Shown here piece by piece: positions 10,449 through 18,576 of a DNA stretch of 64,000 bases. Made by a program: the position numbers and the translations under genes. The DNA comes from Aeromicrobium chenweiae (GTDB taxonomy: Bacteria; Actinomycetota; Actinomycetes; Propionibacteriales; Nocardioidaceae). The DNA is taken from the NCBI RefSeq assembly GCF_003065605.1, contig NZ_CP026952.1, positions 2,418,001 to 2,482,000 of the forward strand, written 5' to 3'. How positions within the stretch are numbered: position 1 is the stretch's first letter; each line of letters begins with the position of its first letter. The notes beneath the pieces were generated by a model, which was not told the origin of the DNA, made no database searches, and was given only the letters and a program-made list of their open reading frames with translations.

Positions 10449-11591
10449 TCAGGACAGCAGTGCGTCGACGAACTCCTCGGCGTCGAACGGGGCGAGGTCG
10501 TCCTCGCCCTCGCCGAGTCCCACGAACTTGACCGGGACGCCGAGCTCGCGCTGGACCGCGATGACGATGCCGCCCTTGGCCGTGCCGTCGAGCTTGGTCA
10601 GGACGATGCCCGTCACGTCCACGACCTCGCCGAAGACGCGCGCCTGGGTCAGGCCGTTCTGACCCGTCGTCGCGTCGATGACCAGCAGGACCTCGGTGAC
10701 GGGAGCCTGCTTCTCGATCACGCGCTTGACCTTGCCGAGCTCGTCCATCAGGCCGGACTTGGTGTGCAGACGGCCCGCGGTGTCGACGAGCACGACGTCG
10801 GTCTCGTCGGCGATGCCACGCTGGACGGCCTCGAACCCGACGCTCGCGGGGTCGCCGCCCTCGGGACCGCGCACGGTCGGGACGCCGACCCGCTCGCCCC
10901 AGGTCTGCAGCTGGTCGGCGGCGGCGGCACGGAACGTGTCGGCCGCGCCGAGGACGACGGTCTGCTCCTCGGCCACCAGCACGCGCGCGAGGCGGCCGAC
11001 GGTCGTGGTCTTGCCGGTGCCGTTGACGCCGACGACCAGCACGACGCCGGGCTTGTCGTCGGCCCCGGTGGAGCGCAGCGTGCGGTCCAGCGTCGGGTCG
11101 ACCAGCCGGACGAGCTCCTCACGCAGGGCGGCCTTGGCCAGCTGGGGGTCGGTGATGCCCTCGACGCGCAGCTTCGTGCGGAGGTTCTGCACGAGCTCGT
11201 CGGTCGCCGTCACGCCCACGTCGGCGGCGAGCAGGGTGTCCTCGATCTCCTCCCACGCGGCCTCGTCGAGGGTCGAGCGACCCAGGACGGCCAGCAGCCC
11301 CTTGCCGAGCGAGCCCTGTGACTTGGCGAGCCGGGCGCGCAGGCGGACGAGACGCCCCTGCGGGGCCTCCGGGCGCTCCAGCGTGTCGACGGCCGTCGGC
11401 GGGCCCGGGACGTCCTCGTCCTCCAGGTGGGGCTCGGGGCGTTCGGGGTGGTGGATGACCTCGTCGGTGATCTCCTGCAGGTCCGCGGGCGGAGGCAGCT
11501 CCGCCCTCCCGCGGGACATGACGAGGCCGATGCCTGCCCCCAGGATGACGACAGCGGCAGCGATGATGATGAGAAGAACGGTCGTGGTCAC
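10449..11591 (-). CDS. ftsY: SRP receptor GTPase FtsY
   Basis: A 380-residue membrane-docking partner of Ffh. A hydrophobic N-terminal segment (residues 4-25) is followed by an acidic linker (about 35-75), then the NG domain with P-loop GVNGTGKTT (188-196), [16 protein letters not shown] and [10 protein letters not shown]. The start is a GTG that overlaps the cydC stop as GTGA. The gene is therefore translationally coupled to the cytochrome bd assembly genes, an unusual partnership for a protein-targeting factor. Confidence 0.96.
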
Positions 11592-13183
11592 ACCGCGATC
11601 CTATGCGGGTCGTGTTGGGCGCCGCCCACGGACACGACCTGGCCGACCCGCTCCAGCACGGCGGCGGAGTGGCTGATGACCAGGACGCTCCGGCCGGGCA
11701 CGAGGGCCAGCAGGTCGTCCATCAGCGCCTCGCCCGCCTCCGCGTCGAGGTGCTCGGTGGGCTCGTCGACGATCAGCACGCGATGTCCGCCCAGCACCAG
11801 GCGGGCCAGGCACAGCCGTTGCCGCTCGCCACCGGACAGCCGGTTGCCGCGCTCGCCGACCCGCGTGTCCAGGCCGTCGGCCAGCGAGGCGACGAAGTCC
11901 CCCAGACCGGCGGTCCCGAGCGCGCGGTGCAGCTCGGCGTCGGACGCGTGCGGGTCCGCGATGCGCAGGTTCTCCCGGATCGTGGTGTCGAACACGATCT
12001 CGTCCTGTCCCAGGTAGCCGACGACGCTGCGCACGTCCGTCGCGGCGAGCTCGCGGACGTCGACGCCGCCGAGCAGCACCTGTCCCCCGCGCGGCTCCGC
12101 GAGGCGCGCGAGCGTGTGGGCGAGCGTGCTCTTGCCCGAGCCGCTCGGGCCCGTGACGCCCAGGACCGCGCCCGCCGGCAGGTCGAGCTCGATCCCCCGG
12201 GCCACGGTCGAGGTCCAGCCCACGGCGAGGTCGCGGGCGACCAGGTCGTAGTTCGCGGGCAGCGGCAGCGGGTCGACCGGGTCGGTGATCGCCGCTGCCG
12301 CCAGCGCGAGCTCGCCGAGCCGCGCCTCCGCGCCCTCGATCTCGGGCCGGAGCCGTTCTGCCTCCGCGAGCGCCGAGAGCGGCTCGACGAGCGCGAGCGG
12401 TGCCAGGACGACGACGCCCACGAGCACCGGGGCCAGATCTGCCGAGAGCGCGGCGATCGTGGCCACGGCCACGCCGGTCGCCAGGAGCACGAGAGCCTCC
12501 CCCAGACCGGTGACGACCGCGGCCCGGCGCTGGGCCGCCTCGAGCGAGGCGGTCGACCGGCGCGTCTCGCGACGCAGGACGTCCGTCGCCCCGTACGCCA
12601 CGAGGTCCGGGGCGGCCAGCACCGCCTGCGAGACGTCCGCCGCGAGGTCGCCGCGCCACCGGGCCGTCAGGGTCCCGGCGCGGCGCACCGACCATGGCAC
12701 GACCGTACGCACGCCGGCCATCGCCGCGAGCGTCGTGGCAGCGAGCACCAGGCCGGACCGCAGGTCGACCACGCCGACCAGGCCGATCGTCACGGCCGAG
12801 GACGCGATCGCGACGACCCACGGGCCACGCAGGCGCAGCACCCGGTCCTGGATCGCGTCGACGTCCGAGACGACCCGGCTCACCAGGTCACCCCGACGAC
12901 GCGACGCCATGCCACCCGGTGCGATCCGGTCGAGGTCACGGTAGACCGCGACGCGCGCCTCGGTGATGCGGGCGAACGTCGCGTCGTGGGTCAGGAGCCG
13001 CTCGACGTACCGCAGCACGGCCCGGGTGAGCCCGAAGAACCGCACCCCGACGATCGCCACCATCAGGTACAGCACCGGCGGCTGCTCCGCCGCCCGCACG
13101 ATCAGCCACGCGGACGTGAGCAGCAGGGCAATGCCGGCGAGCTCGGACAGCACGCCCATCAGCCGGCCCCACACCATCGTCAT
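11588..13183 (-). CDS. cydC: Cytochrome bd assembly ABC exporter subunit CydC
   Basis: A 531-residue fused membrane/ATPase half-transporter that, with CydD, exports thiols or handles heme needed to assemble cytochrome bd. Membrane spans fill the first ~280 residues. Walker A is GPSGSGKST, the signature LSGGERQRLCLARL and Walker B VLIVDEPTEHLD, with the usual Glu after the second Asp. The ATG overlaps the cydD stop as ATGA. Order and coupling (cydA-cydB-cydD-cydC) identify it. Confidence 0.9.
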   Translation of the reverse strand: MTMVWGRLMGVLSELAGIALLLTSAWLIVRAAEQPPVLYLMVAIVGVRFFGLTRAVLRYVERLLTHDATFARITEARVAVYRDLDRIAPGGMASRRRGDLVSRVVSDVDAIQDRVLRLRGPWVVAIASSAVTIGLVGVVDLRSGLVLAATTLAAMAGVRTVVPWSVRRAGTLTARWRGDLAADVSQAVLAAPDLVAYGATDVLRRETRRSTASLEAAQRRAAVVTGLGEALVLLATGVAVATIAALSADLAPVLVGVVVLAPLALVEPLSALAEAERLRPEIEGAEARLGELALAAAAITDPVDPLPLPANYDLVARDLAVGWTSTVARGIELDLPAGAVLGVTGPSGSGKSTLAHTLARLAEPRGGQVLLGGVDVRELAATDVRSVVGYLGQDEIVFDTTIRENLRIADPHASDAELHRALGTAGLGDFVASLADGLDTRVGERGNRLSGGERQRLCLARLVLGGHRVLIVDEPTEHLDAEAGEALMDDLLALVPGRSVLVISHSAAVLERVGQVVSVGGAQHDPHRIAV

Positions 13184-14805
13184 GCGAGCACCATCCTCGA
13201 GGTCAGCCGGAGCTCGCGGTCCGCGGCCGCGATCGTCTCCGGGCGGTGGGCGACGACCAGGACGGTCACGTCGAGCGAGCGGAGGGTGGCGAGGACGGCC
13301 GCCTCGCGGGATGCGTCGAGGCCGGCCGTCGGCTCGTCGAGCAGCACCAGCCGGGCGTCCCCACGGCGCACGCGCAGCACGGCACGAGCCACCGCGATCC
13401 GTCGGCGCTCGCCGGCCGAGACGTCGTCACCGGACTCGTCGATCACCCGGTCCAGCGGCAGGTCCGCCGCTCCGGCGTCCCGCAGCGCGGCGGACACGTC
13501 GTCCCGGCCCGACTCGTCGTCGCCCAGACGCACGTTGTCCTCGATCGTGCCCGGCACGAGCCCGGGCACCTGCGGGACCCACGCGATCTGTCGCCGCCAG
13601 GCCACGGGGTCGATCGAGGACAGGTCCACGTCGTCCACCAGGACGTAGCCGGTGGTGGGGCGGTCGAAGGCCATCAGCAGCGACAGCAGGGTGGACTTGC
13701 CACAGCCAGAGGGGCCGGTGACGGCGACGAACTCGCCGGGCCGGACCCGCGTGTGGGCCAGCTCCAGGCTCGGCGCCGAGCGCCCGGCGCGGCGGACCAC
13801 GACGCCGTCGAGGACGATCTCGGCAGCCCGCAGGTCCGGTGCGGGCGCCGCTCCTTCGTGCCGGTCGTGGTCGAGCAGGCCCAACAGCTCCGCGGTCGCC
13901 TCGGCACCCTCGGTGCTGTCGTGGAACATCGCGCCCAGCCGCTTCACCGGCGCGAACGCCTCGGGGGCGAGGAGCAGGACGAACAGCGCGGGCCCGAGCT
14001 CGAGGTCCCCCTCGACGACCCGCAGGCCGACGCTCACCGCCACGAGCGCGACGGCGAGCGTCGAGAACAGCTCGAGCACCAGCGAGGACAGGAAGGCCAG
14101 GCGCAGCGCACGGACGGTCTCGCGGCGGTGCCGCTCCCCCACCTCGCGGAGCCCCTTCTCCTGGCGCCGGCCGAAGACCTTGAGGACCGTCAGCCCGTCG
14201 AGCACGTCCGCGAAGTGCCGGCCGAGACGCTCGAGTGCCTGCCAGCGCCGGTCGATCCGGTCCTTCGTGAGCATGCCGACCAGGACCATGAAGACGATGA
14301 TCAGCGGCAACGTCACCGCGAGCACGATCGCCGACAGCAGGTCCGCGCGGGCCACCGCGAGCAGCACCAACGGCGGGACGAGCGCCGTCAGGACGACCTG
14401 CGGCAGGAACCGGCCGACGTACCCGTCGAACGCGTCGAGCCCCGGCCCGAGCAGGGCAACCACCCGCGAGCTGTTGGGCCGCGGCCCCAGACGACGCGGA
14501 TCGAGCAGGTCGTCGACGACCTCACCTCTCAGCTCGGCCTTGACCGACGCTGCCGCGCGGGCGGACACGGCCGTGTGGCACCAGGTGACCGCCGCCCGGG
14601 CGGCCAGGCCGACCGCGACCGCCGTCACCAGAGCGGCGACCGGCTCGCCGTCGAAGCGTTGCGCGACGACCTGCGCCACGACGTACGCGACGGCGATCAC
14701 CAGTCCCGCGGTGGCGAGGCCCAGCGCGACGCTGACGGCAAGGAGCCGGCGCACGCCGCGGGAGCGACGGACGAGACGGGGATCCAGGGGACGCATCGCC
14801 GTCAC
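13180..14805 (-). CDS. cydD: Cytochrome bd assembly ABC exporter subunit CydD
   Basis: A 541-residue half-transporter with an N-terminal membrane domain and C-terminal ATPase: Walker A GPSGCGKST, a signature reading VSAGERRRIAVARA (Ala instead of the second Ser/Gly position) and Walker B LVLLDEPTAGLD. The start chosen is the GTG that overlaps the cydB stop as GTGA (protein begins VTAMRPLDPR); the ATG three codons later is the alternative. A much longer frame upstream only mirrors cydB. Works as a heterodimer with CydC. Confidence 0.9.
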   Translation of the reverse strand: MTAMRPLDPRLVRRSRGVRRLLAVSVALGLATAGLVIAVAYVVAQVVAQRFDGEPVAALVTAVAVGLAARAAVTWCHTAVSARAAASVKAELRGEVVDDLLDPRRLGPRPNSSRVVALLGPGLDAFDGYVGRFLPQVVLTALVPPLVLLAVARADLLSAIVLAVTLPLIIVFMVLVGMLTKDRIDRRWQALERLGRHFADVLDGLTVLKVFGRRQEKGLREVGERHRRETVRALRLAFLSSLVLELFSTLAVALVAVSVGLRVVEGDLELGPALFVLLLAPEAFAPVKRLGAMFHDSTEGAEATAELLGLLDHDRHEGAAPAPDLRAAEIVLDGVVVRRAGRSAPSLELAHTRVRPGEFVAVTGPSGCGKSTLLSLLMAFDRPTTGYVLVDDVDLSSIDPVAWRRQIAWVPQVPGLVPGTIEDNVRLGDDESGRDDVSAALRDAGAADLPLDRVIDESGDDVSAGERRRIAVARAVLRVRRGDARLVLLDEPTAGLDASREAAVLATLRSLDVTVLVVAHRPETIAAADRELRLTSRMVLA

Positions 14806-15797
14806 ACCGGGATGTGGTGCACGCCGATGCGGCGGCGGAACACCCAGTAGGACCAGCTCTGGTAGCCGATGACGATCGGGGTGAAGAACACCGCGACCCA
14901 CGACATGATCGTGAGCGTGTACGGCGTCGAGGCGGCGTTGGTCGTGGTCAGCGACCAGGCCGCGTCGAGCGAGGACGGCATGACGTCGGGGAACAGCCCG
15001 CTGAACAGTGTCGCCACCAGCAGCGCGATCGCCACGGCGGTGCCGGCGAACGCCCGGCCGTCGCGCCGGTCGAGCGCGTTGAGCATGCCGATCACGAACG
15101 CGAGGACGGTCAGCCCGCCGAGGATCCACACCGCGAGGCTGTCCTGGGCCAGGCCGGTCCACACGACGAACGCCACGGCCAGGGCCCCGGCGACGACGCC
15201 GGCCCGCAGGCCGAGCCGGATCGCCCGCTCACGGATGGGCCCCACGGTCTTGAGACCGACGAAGAACGCGCCGTGCACCAGGAAGACCGACAGCGTGACC
15301 AGCCCGCCGAGCAGCCCGTAGGGGTTCAGCAGGTTGAAGAACCCGCCGACGTACTCGCCGTCGGCGTCGATCGGCACACCGCGCACGATGTTGGCCAGCG
15401 CGACGCCCCACAACAGGGCGGGGACGACCGACCCGAACACGATCGCGGTGTCGCAGCGCCGCCGCCACGACACCTCGTCCCGCTTGGAGCGGAACTCGAT
15501 GCCGATGATTCGCACGATCAACGCCACGAGGATCAGGAGCAGCGGCAGGTAGAAGCCGCTGAACAGCGTCGCGTACCACTCGGGGAACGCCGCGAACGTG
15601 GCTCCGCCGGCGACGAGCAACCACACCTCGTTGCCGTCCCAGACCGGGCCGATCGTGTTGATCAGGACCCGGCGCTCGGTGTCATCCCGCGCGAGCACCG
15701 CCATGAGCATGCCGACGCCGAAGTCGAACCCCTCGAGGACGAGGTAGCCGACCCACAGGACCGCGATGATGATGAACCAGAAGGTCGTGAGCTCCAT
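14802..15797 (-). CDS. cydB: Cytochrome bd ubiquinol/menaquinol oxidase subunit II
   Basis: A 331-residue integral membrane protein with about nine spans. It begins MELTTFWFIIIAVLWVGYLVLEGFDFGVG and carries the family stretch GPVWDGNEVWLLVAGGATFAAFP. It forms the high-affinity terminal oxidase with CydA, reducing oxygen at low tension without pumping protons. It lies 12 nt after cydA. Confidence 0.97.
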   Translation of the reverse strand: MELTTFWFIIIAVLWVGYLVLEGFDFGVGMLMAVLARDDTERRVLINTIGPVWDGNEVWLLVAGGATFAAFPEWYATLFSGFYLPLLLILVALIVRIIGIEFRSKRDEVSWRRRCDTAIVFGSVVPALLWGVALANIVRGVPIDADGEYVGGFFNLLNPYGLLGGLVTLSVFLVHGAFFVGLKTVGPIRERAIRLGLRAGVVAGALAVAFVVWTGLAQDSLAVWILGGLTVLAFVIGMLNALDRRDGRAFAGTAVAIALLVATLFSGLFPDVMPSSLDAAWSLTTTNAASTPYTLTIMSWVAVFFTPIVIGYQSWSYWVFRRRIGVHHIPV

Positions 15798-15809: not shown

Positions 15810-17216
15810 TCAGTAGGCGTACGCGAGCGGCGCGTCGGCGTCGCCGAGGTCCGGGTCGCGTGGGGGGTCGAGCTGGGGCAGTCCGGCCTGCACGTAGCGC
15901 AGCAGCAGCCGCACCTCGATGACGGCCAGGACGCCGTAGAGGAGGGTGAACGTCGCCAGCGACGTCGCCACCTCCCCCACGCTCGTGCTGGGCGAGACGC
16001 CGGACGCGGTCGGCATGAGGCCGAACACGACCCACGGCTGACGGCCCATCTCGGTGAAGATCCAGCCGAACGAGTTCGCCGCCATGGGCAGCAGCGGCAG
16101 GACGATCGCCGCCCGGAGCATCCACCGCGAGCGCGGGGTGCGGCCTCGCCTGGTGGCCCAGAGCATGAGCGCGCCGGCCGCCATCGCCAGTCCGCCCGCC
16201 GTGATCATCGCGCGGAAGGTCCAGTACGTGACGGGGATGTTGGGCTTGTAGTCGCCGGGGCCGTACTTCTGCTCGTACTCCTCCTGCAGCGAGTCGATGC
16301 CGCGGACCTCCCCGTCGAAGGTCCCGGTGCCGAGGAACGAGAGCAGCTTGGGGACCTCGAGCTTGAAGACCTCCTCGGACCCGTCGAGCGTCCCGACCGT
16401 GAGGATCGAGAACGGCGCGGGCTTGGCGTCGTCGTACAGCGCCTCGGCCGCGGCCATCTTCATGGGCTGCACCTCGGTCATGACCTTGCCCTGGAAGTCG
16501 CCGGTGATCATCGTGCCGAGGCCGGCGACGAGCAGCACGACCGCGCCCATGCGGAAGGCGGGACGGAACGCGTCGGCGTCGCGATCGGGGTGCCGCATCA
16601 TGTTCCACAGCGCGACCCCGGCGACGAACGCGCCGGCGACCATGAAGCAGCCGATGATCTGGTGCGGGAACGTGGCCAGCAGCACCTTGTTCGTCAGCAC
16701 CGCTCCGAAGTCGGTGAGCTCGGCGCGGCCCTTCTCGCCGTTGAGCGTGTAACCGACCGGGTTCTGCATGAACGAGTTGGCCGCGAGGATGAAGTACGCC
16801 GAGAACACCGTGCCGGCCGCGGCGATCCAGATGCACGCGAGGTGGAGGCCCGGCTTGAGCCGGTCCCAGCCGAAGATCCACAGGCCGAGGAAGGTGGACT
16901 CCAGGAAGAACGCCAGCAGGCCCTCGATCGCCAGCGGAGCGCCGAAGATGTCGCCCACGAAGCGCGAGTAGTCGCTCCAGTTCATCCCGAACTGGAACTC
17001 CTGGACGATGCCGGTCGCGATGCCCATCGCGAAGTTGATGAGGAACAGCTTGCCGAAGAACTTGGTCAGGCGAAGCCAGCGCTCGTCGCCCGAACGGCGC
17101 CAGATCGTCTGCATCGTGGCGACCAGGACGGACAGTCCGATCGTGAGCGGCACGAAGAAGAAGTGGTACACGGTGGTGATGCCGAACTGCCATCGTGCGA
17201 GGTCCAGGACATCCAT
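15810..17216 (-). CDS. cydA: Cytochrome bd oxidase subunit I
   Basis: A 468-residue protein holding hemes b558, b595 and d. Visible hallmarks are MDVLDLARWQFGITTVYHFF with His18 (heme ligand), GWDRLKPGLH, the GRQPW motif in GWIFTEMGRQPWVVFGLMPT and a short Q-loop typical of Gram-positive enzymes. A good Shine-Dalgarno (AAGGAG) lies 6 nt before the ATG. Two of the three BlaI-type operators (17232-17267) lie 16-51 nt upstream of the start, so the operon is probably repressed by the divergent BlaI protein. Confidence 0.97.
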   Translation of the reverse strand: MDVLDLARWQFGITTVYHFFFVPLTIGLSVLVATMQTIWRRSGDERWLRLTKFFGKLFLINFAMGIATGIVQEFQFGMNWSDYSRFVGDIFGAPLAIEGLLAFFLESTFLGLWIFGWDRLKPGLHLACIWIAAAGTVFSAYFILAANSFMQNPVGYTLNGEKGRAELTDFGAVLTNKVLLATFPHQIIGCFMVAGAFVAGVALWNMMRHPDRDADAFRPAFRMGAVVLLVAGLGTMITGDFQGKVMTEVQPMKMAAAEALYDDAKPAPFSILTVGTLDGSEEVFKLEVPKLLSFLGTGTFDGEVRGIDSLQEEYEQKYGPGDYKPNIPVTYWTFRAMITAGGLAMAAGALMLWATRRGRTPRSRWMLRAAIVLPLLPMAANSFGWIFTEMGRQPWVVFGLMPTASGVSPSTSVGEVATSLATFTLLYGVLAVIEVRLLLRYVQAGLPQLDPPRDPDLGDADAPLAYAY

Positions 17217-17231: not shown

Positions 17232-17312
17232 TACTACGCCATGTAGTAACTACTACGGATCGTAGTAACACCGCACGAGCCGCCGCAAGCGCATTTACTA
17301 CCTGGCGTAGTA
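17232..17312. promoter_or_regulatory. Three BlaI-type operators between cydA and blaI
   Basis: Three copies of TACTAC-N5-GTAGTA occur in the 107-bp divergent region: 17232-17248, 17251-17267 and 17296-17312. Sites 1 and 2 are next to the cydA start, and site 3 overlaps the blaI -10 (TAGATT, 17311-17316), which ends 7 nt before the blaI ATG. The TACTA...TAGTA dyad is the type bound by BlaI/MecI repressors, including mycobacterial BlaI. Confidence 0.8.
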
Positions 17313-17323
17313 GATTGGGTCAC

Positions 17324-17692
17324 ATGCCTCATCTGGGAGAGCTGGAACGCTCGGTCATGAACGTCCTGTGGGACTCGTCCGCGCCCATGAAGGTGCGCGA
17401 GGTCCTCGACGCCCTGGACGAGCGCGACCTGGCGTACACGACGATCATGACCGTCCTCGACCGCCTCGGGACCAAGGAGATGGTCCGCCGCGAGCGTGAC
17501 GGCCGCGCGTTCCGCTACGCCCCTGCCCTGACGCGCGACGCGGCGACGTCCGAGCTGCTCCACGCCGCACTCGACCAGGCCGGAGCCGACCGCACCGCGG
17601 CCCTCGTGCACTTCGCCCGCACCGTCGACGTCGCAGAGGCCCAGGCACTGCGCGCCGCCCTCGACGAGATCGAGTCGCGAGCCTCGGAATGA
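17324..17692 (+). CDS. BlaI/MecI-family repressor
   Basis: A 122-residue winged-helix repressor. The N-terminus MPHLGELERSVMNVLWDSSA and the recognition-helix region LAYTTIMTVLDRLGTKEMV match the BlaI/MecI/CopY family, and the C-terminal helices form the dimer domain cleaved in classic systems. The start is the ATG at 17324, 7 nt after a TAGATT -10 (leaderless). It overlaps the M56 peptidase gene as ATGA. Operators before cydA and before itself suggest that it controls cytochrome bd as well as its own pair, rather than a beta-lactamase, since none is in the window. Confidence 0.9.
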   Translation: MPHLGELERSVMNVLWDSSAPMKVREVLDALDERDLAYTTIMTVLDRLGTKEMVRRERDGRAFRYAPALTRDAATSELLHAALDQAGADRTAALVHFARTVDVAEAQALRAALDEIESRASE

Positions 17693-18576
17693 CCCCGCTC
17701 CTGCTCGGGCTGATCGGGCTCGCCCTGTCGCTGCCGATCCCCGCACTGCTCGCCCGCACGAGCTGGCCGTTGCTGGTCCCGCGCGCCGGGATCATCCTGT
17801 GGCAGTCGTTCGCCCTGGCAGCCGTGCTCGCGATCTCGGGCGCCGCGCTGTCCACCGCACTGTGGCTGGTCACCGCCGAACGGCTCACCTGGTGGCGGAT
17901 CGCGCTGCACCTGGTCATCCTCGGCGTCGGCGTGCTGGTGTGGGCGCGGTTCTGGTGGGCGGCGTGGACCGTGTGGCGCGAGACGCAGGCCCGCCGGCGG
18001 CGCCAGCGCCACCTCGTCGACCTGCTGGGCGAGGCCGACGGCATGGCACCGGCGATCCGCATCCTGCAGGAGGAGACCCCGATCGCCTACTGCGTCCCGG
18101 GCATCGCGTCGCCACGCATCGTGGTATCGCAGGGCACGATCTCGACCCTGTCGGCCACGGAGTACGCCGCAGTGCTCGAGCACGAGCGCGCACACGTGCG
18201 CCGGCGGCACGATTTGGTCCTCGAGTCGTTCACGGTCCTGCACCGGGCGTTCCCCCGGTTCCTGCGCACCGACGCCCCGCTCGTGCAGAGCCAGGTCATG
18301 GTCGAGCTGCTCGCCGACGACGCCGCGCGCAAGTCCTGCGGCGAGGCCTCGGTCGCCCGGGCCCTGGTGGCCCTCGCCGGCGCACCCACCCCGGCAGGCG
18401 CGCTGGGCAGCGGCGGCTCGGCGAGCGTCCGGATGACCCGGCTCCTCGACCCCGATCCCCGCAACGCGCCGGCGTCAGGGCTCGCCTACCTCATCTCGGT
18501 GGTCGTGCTCGTGGCGCCGACCGTGCTGCTCGCGGTGCCGTGGATGGCGCACGCGATCCACACCCTCACCGGCTGA
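17689..18576 (+). CDS. M56 family zinc peptidase (BlaR/MecR1-like sensor without penicillin-binding domain)
   Basis: A 295-residue membrane metallopeptidase. Spans are visible at about residues 3-22, 35-60 and 70-92 and at the C-terminus (268-288). The zinc site is HERAH (165-169), with a likely third ligand in LLADDAA. There is no extracellular penicillin-sensor domain, as in mycobacterial BlaR-type proteins, so the signal is unknown. By analogy it cleaves or triggers loss of the BlaI repressor encoded by the overlapping gene upstream. If that repressor governs cydABDC, the peptidase may sense respiratory or envelope stress (inference). Confidence 0.85.
   Translation: MTPLLLGLIGLALSLPIPALLARTSWPLLVPRAGIILWQSFALAAVLAISGAALSTALWLVTAERLTWWRIALHLVILGVGVLVWARFWWAAWTVWRETQARRRRQRHLVDLLGEADGMAPAIRILQEETPIAYCVPGIASPRIVVSQGTISTLSATEYAAVLEHERAHVRRRHDLVLESFTVLHRAFPRFLRTDAPLVQSQVMVELLADDAARKSCGEASVARALVALAGAPTPAGALGSGGSASVRMTRLLDPDPRNAPASGLAYLISVVVLVAPTVLLAVPWMAHAIHTLTG

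Follow-up and report, generated by a model that had tools for sequence, protein, structure and literature searches.

Cytochrome bd is a copper-free backup respiratory oxidase, which helps actinobacteria, including Mycobacterium tuberculosis, to survive respiratory inhibitors. The 2009 paper on the BlaI regulon reportedly does not include cyd in the list given in its abstract. According to a second paper, which cites the 2009 regulon study, the cytochrome bd promoter is bound by M. tuberculosis BlaI (PMC5473688). Published work also counts the ATP synthase operon among the targets of BlaI, with an EMSA on Rv1303 (PMC12565901). A study of cyd induction in M. smegmatis names Crp and SigF, and in a term search of it for repressors or palindromes only Rex was found, as background (PMC7739888).

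The window analysed here is the whole 64,000-nucleotide stretch of DNA. It comes from the soil bacterium Aeromicrobium chenweiae; the genus belongs to the family Nocardioidaceae, order Propionibacteriales. The sequence-only reading of this DNA proposed that the cytochrome bd operon is probably under the control of a BlaI/M56 pair. This proposal is strongly supported by four lines of evidence, these being phylogenetic footprinting across relatives, the co-presence of regulator and operator, the occurrence of dyads at both promoters where BlaI is displaced, and calibration in mycobacteria. We consider that BlaI directly represses both cyd and blaI-M56, with a probability of about 0.85 on the basis of these comparisons of sequence.

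The locus and its proteins

The genes of the locus are as follows.

15810–17216, minus strand: cydA, cytochrome bd subunit I (PF01654, E 1.9e-169)
14802–15797, minus strand: cydB, cytochrome bd subunit II (PF02322, E 1.5e-107)
13180–14802, minus strand: cydD-like ABC exporter half, start codon approximate (PF00005 and PF00664)
11588–13183, minus strand: cydC-like ABC exporter half (PF00005)
17324–17692, plus strand: blaI, winged-helix repressor of the Penicillinase_R family, 122 residues (PF03965, E 2.2e-26)
17689–18576, plus strand: M56 membrane metallopeptidase, 295 residues, with HExxH at residues 165–169 (PF05569)

A second, distant gene resembling cytochrome bd subunit I (32% identity) is located at 1135683–1137005 of the A. 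chenweiae genome.

BlaI matches the PF03965 profile over positions 1–115 of 115, and thus has a full-length Penicillinase_R domain. Among solved structures, its nearest relative is M. tuberculosis 2g9w (E 1.6e-25). The LNF segment of S. aureus BlaI is the region of known BlaR1-triggered cleavage, and a conserved LVHF segment of the A. chenweiae protein aligns with it. The M56 protein scores 37.6–38.4 bits against PF05569 (cut-off 31) and is the only one that the Pfam model detects in the genome. Residues H165, E166 and H169 are invariant in an alignment of 19 relatives. A penicillin-binding or extracellular sensor domain was not found in this protein, which terminates just past its last helix. 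The top fold match for its structure model is S. aureus BlaR1, although at E 0.53 the match is a weak one.

Operators and promoters in the intergenic region

The cydA–blaI intergenic region is 107 bp long. The earlier claim that three TACTAC-N5-GTAGTA operators fill this divergent region proved exact in its positions, and all three dyads are perfect. The predicted operators and promoter elements are listed here.

17232–17248: predicted BlaI operator 1, TACTACGCCATGTAGTA, in the cydA leader, 3' of the predicted cydA start
17251–17267: predicted BlaI operator 2, TACTACGGATCGTAGTA, bearing the predicted cydA -10
17296–17312: predicted BlaI operator 3, TACTACCTGGCGTAGTA, overlapping the predicted blaI -10
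17264–17259, minus strand: predicted cydA -10, TACGAT
17283–17288, minus strand: predicted cydA -35, TTGCGG, 18 bp from the -10
17311–17316, plus strand: predicted blaI -10, TAGATT

In 100 dinucleotide-preserving shuffles the expected number of perfect dyads was 0.00, against the three observed; their occurrence by chance is ruled out, there being none in shuffled sequence. No other perfect TACTAC-N5-GTAGTA was found in the whole single-contig genome of 3,717,741 bp. It contains three copies with one mismatch, all of which are Tyr-Tyr codons within reading frames of high GC3, and a wider regulon in A. chenweiae is therefore rejected for near-perfect sites. Likewise, no dyad was found at the ATP synthase operon in a genome search for perfect sites, the one-mismatch sites being coding.

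The promoter assignments are drawn from conservation among 18 Aeromicrobium loci of the same arrangement. The putative cydA -10 has the form TACnnT in all 18, and a TTG at a spacing of 17–18 bp, corresponding to the putative -35, is present in 14 of them. The distance between sites 1 and 2 is 19 bp in 17 of these loci and 24 bp in the remaining one. The central base of site 2 is always T on the cydA strand (18/18), while the centres of sites 1 and 3 vary; a fixed T is what would be expected if a TACnnT hexamer lies inside site 2. On the other side, the conserved site 3 provides a palindromic operator at blaI's own promoter and shares two bases with the predicted blaI -10. As this hexamer ends seven bases before the ATG, the blaI mRNA is probably leaderless. 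The sequence-only reading had placed two dyads beside cydA and one on the blaI -10; this stands, with the refinement that site 2 bears the likely cydA -10. With site 2 on the likely cydA -10 and site 3 over that of blaI, both promoters should be repressed.

On the basis of these observations, we hypothesise that BlaI dimers occupy all three dyads and thereby repress both of the divergent promoters. Repression of cydABDC would be exerted through sites 1 and 2, which cover the -10 and the start region, and the leaderless blaI-M56 operon would be autoregulated through site 3 on its -10. On receipt of a signal, the M56 protease would cut BlaI, in the LVHF segment, and the repressor would leave the DNA, so that the copper-free oxidase and the regulator pair are both made. 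Induction through cleavage of BlaI by M56 is the mechanism of the family and, by analogy, is likely here.

Conservation of the dyads with BlaI

The TACTAC-type dyad is a general actinobacterial BlaI operator, and the sites alone are therefore no proof of an effect on cyd. They might serve only for the autoregulation of blaI, with cydA a mere neighbour under another regulator. It is true that repressors of the BlaI family autoregulate, and that mycobacterial blaI has a dyad of its own; but two of the three sites in A. chenweiae are on the cydA side, and one of these is on the cydA -10. The comparisons with relatives bear on the same question.

The cydA loci of 31 Aeromicrobium genomes were compared. 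A divergent BlaI/M56 pair is present at cydA in 18 of them and missing from the other 13. Dyads are present at all 18 loci with the pair: 17 of these have one or more perfect copies, and one has three copies with a single mismatch each. In the 13 loci that lack BlaI, the 300 bp upstream of cydA contain no dyad. The combined state of pair and dyad changes twice on the cydA tree, so the correlation does not come from a single event, although the events are few.

Some of the 13 loci without BlaI have instead a Rex-like (TTGTGAA...TCACAA) or a DosR-like (GGGACCAAGGTCCC) box before cydA, recognised by eye. These boxes suggest that the regulator of cyd has been swapped. Other boxes at cydA in BlaI-less relatives are also what would be expected if cydA were normally under a different regulator and the dyads concerned only blaI.

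A survey of the family covered 150 genomes, in which 96 cydA loci were compared. BlaI is divergent from cydA at 48 of the 96, with a gap of 98–245 bp. Three other families of the order Propionibacteriales (f2, f3 and f4) have further cydA loci linked to BlaI. The divergent BlaI/M56 pair is found at cydA in f2, and at all 38 BlaI-linked loci of f3, with a gap of 107–178 bp. In f4, BlaI lies 1.3–2.1 kb away from cydA, and each of the three loci that were read has two dyads next to cydA and a single one at the promoter of blaI. Dyads thus remain at cydA where blaI is displaced or unlinked, and we regard it as most improbable that they act in the autoregulation of blaI alone. Direct repression of cyd by BlaI is the reading preferred here.

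Named loci with the pair at cyd occur also in Microlunatus, Nocardioides, Desertihabitans, Actinomycetospora and Ruania. In loci of Micromonospora, a divergent cytochrome bd subunit I gene comes after blaI and M56 on the same strand, and there is one dyad, at the blaI promoter.

The outer bases of the dyads are conserved and their centres are free. Half-site changes in other genera are symmetric, TACGAC being found with GTCGTA, as expected for the operator of a dimer. An Arg in the recognition helix of BlaI goes with C at base 6 of the half-site (118 counts, many of them from related or overlapping loci), and an Asn goes with T (three cases only, all in copper islands). This may represent a specificity code, which would fit with each BlaI being paired with its own sites.

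Calibration in mycobacteria

Nine mycobacterial genomes, in which BlaI does not adjoin cydA, were searched for exact matches to TACKAC-N5-GTMGTA. Each contains 5–8 sites. A dyad is located upstream of atpI-atpB in eight of the nine; as this is the target confirmed by EMSA, the motif is identified as the BlaI operator. In all nine genomes a dyad also precedes the cydA reading frame, by approximately 30–45 bp, and by the same criterion cyd is a member of the BlaI regulon in mycobacteria. The sequence-only reading had noted that mycobacterial BlaI touches the ATP synthase genes, and took this as support for a link to cyd. The point is sound, and the parallel is in fact closer, because the dyad is present before mycobacterial cydA itself.

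Mycobacterial dyads were also seen before a cytochrome b (QcrB-type) gene (L166, 1501–1517) and at the start of a gene for an Rrf2-family regulator (L171, 1501–1517). Two mycobacteria have a dyad between a gene starting MGFLK (about 500 residues, membrane-like) and a smaller divergent gene (L206, 1533; L210, 1564).

Many related bacteria thus share this wiring, among them mycobacteria. The conserved BlaI operator at the cyd promoter points to a candidate direct repressor, and to a candidate protease, for the cyd switch. Aeromicrobium offers a clean system in which to study it, since there is just one BlaI, one M56 and one target region.

The inducing signal

Pairs of a repressor and a membrane protease of this type are known chiefly as inducers of penicillin resistance. 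The A. chenweiae case is a caution against calling BlaI/M56 pairs beta-lactam resistance genes in annotation. The link to an envelope sensor and beta-lactams proposed in the sequence-only reading is backed by no specific feature: a penicillin-binding domain is missing from the M56 protein, and the other pairs examined in the genus do not occur with beta-lactamases. Nor does any feature support the control of a beta-lactamase as the role of the A. chenweiae pair.

The same circuit could nevertheless respond to cell-wall damage or a beta-lactam, as staphylococcal BlaR1 does and as has been reported for M. tuberculosis BlaI. Amoxicillin/clavulanate indeed raises the expression of both blaI-blaR and cydAB in M. 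tuberculosis (PMC5473688), although wall damage may act via respiration. Since the M56 protein is without the penicillin-binding domain, and the other Aeromicrobium BlaI/M56 pairs examined are not found with beta-lactamases, we think such a signal unlikely.

Alternatively, the circuit could sense an imbalance of copper, or the failure of a copper oxidase, upon which the copper-free oxidase would take over. Eight extra BlaI regions were fetched from other Aeromicrobium, and the subset of neighbours checked against Pfam includes CopC, HMA domain, CtaG, DsbA-like thioredoxin, DsbD_TM and PCuAC genes; most of the other BlaI/M56 pairs of the genus are thus surrounded by genes for copper and thiol functions. 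Other Aeromicrobium genomes have single dyads in front of genes of the CopC type, and the expression of cyd and the rv1303-atp genes is raised in a copper-starved sigC mutant of M. tuberculosis (PMC7924339). Against this, the BlaIs of the copper islands are paralogues, and the operator differs for some of them; the M. tuberculosis data are explicable by other regulators; and the only metal site identified in M56 is the catalytic zinc motif. A copper signal is therefore an attractive idea to which we would give rather less than even odds. Some of the dyads in the extra BlaI/M56 islands (L186–L193) have the form TACTAT-N5-ATAGTA.

Taken together, the missing penicillin-binding domain, the paralogue loci that are not associated with beta-lactamases, the dyads at CopC genes and the expression data from M. 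tuberculosis make respiratory stress (a failing heme-copper oxidase) or copper/thiol stress likelier than a beta-lactam as the signal. More speculatively, the actinomycete BlaI with a sensor-less M56 might ancestrally be a respiratory/copper-stress switch, which senses failure of the heme-copper oxidase (or an imbalance of membrane copper or thiols) and turns on cytochrome bd, the control of beta-lactamases being a side branch. We put this forward tentatively, and think it doubtful.

Comparison with known systems

The A. chenweiae pair resembles BlaI/BlaR1 and MecI/MecR1 of S. aureus in the pairing of a repressor gene with an M56 gene, in the HExxH motif, and in a conserved Phe in the aligned cleavage segment. 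It differs in having neither a penicillin-binding sensor domain nor a beta-lactamase target, and in its operator. Rex of Streptomyces is similar in that a repressor acts over a cytochrome bd promoter, that of cydABCD (PMC5355995), but it responds to NADH and recognises TTGTGAAN4TTCACAA, and it is boxes of this type that are found in some BlaI-less Aeromicrobium.

The closest parallel is with BlaI (Rv1846c) and BlaR (Rv1845c) of M. tuberculosis. The mycobacterial protein is the nearest solved repressor (2g9w), the same type of dyad stands before cydA, atp and blaI in mycobacteria, and BlaR is likewise an M56 partner without a sensor domain (PMC5473688). The difference is that the A. chenweiae pair is divergent from cyd and dedicated to it, with no dyad at atp and no other perfect site. 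A regulatory link of this kind had already been stated for M. tuberculosis, and the arrangement in A. chenweiae is a variant of it that is dedicated to cyd and has no sensor domain.
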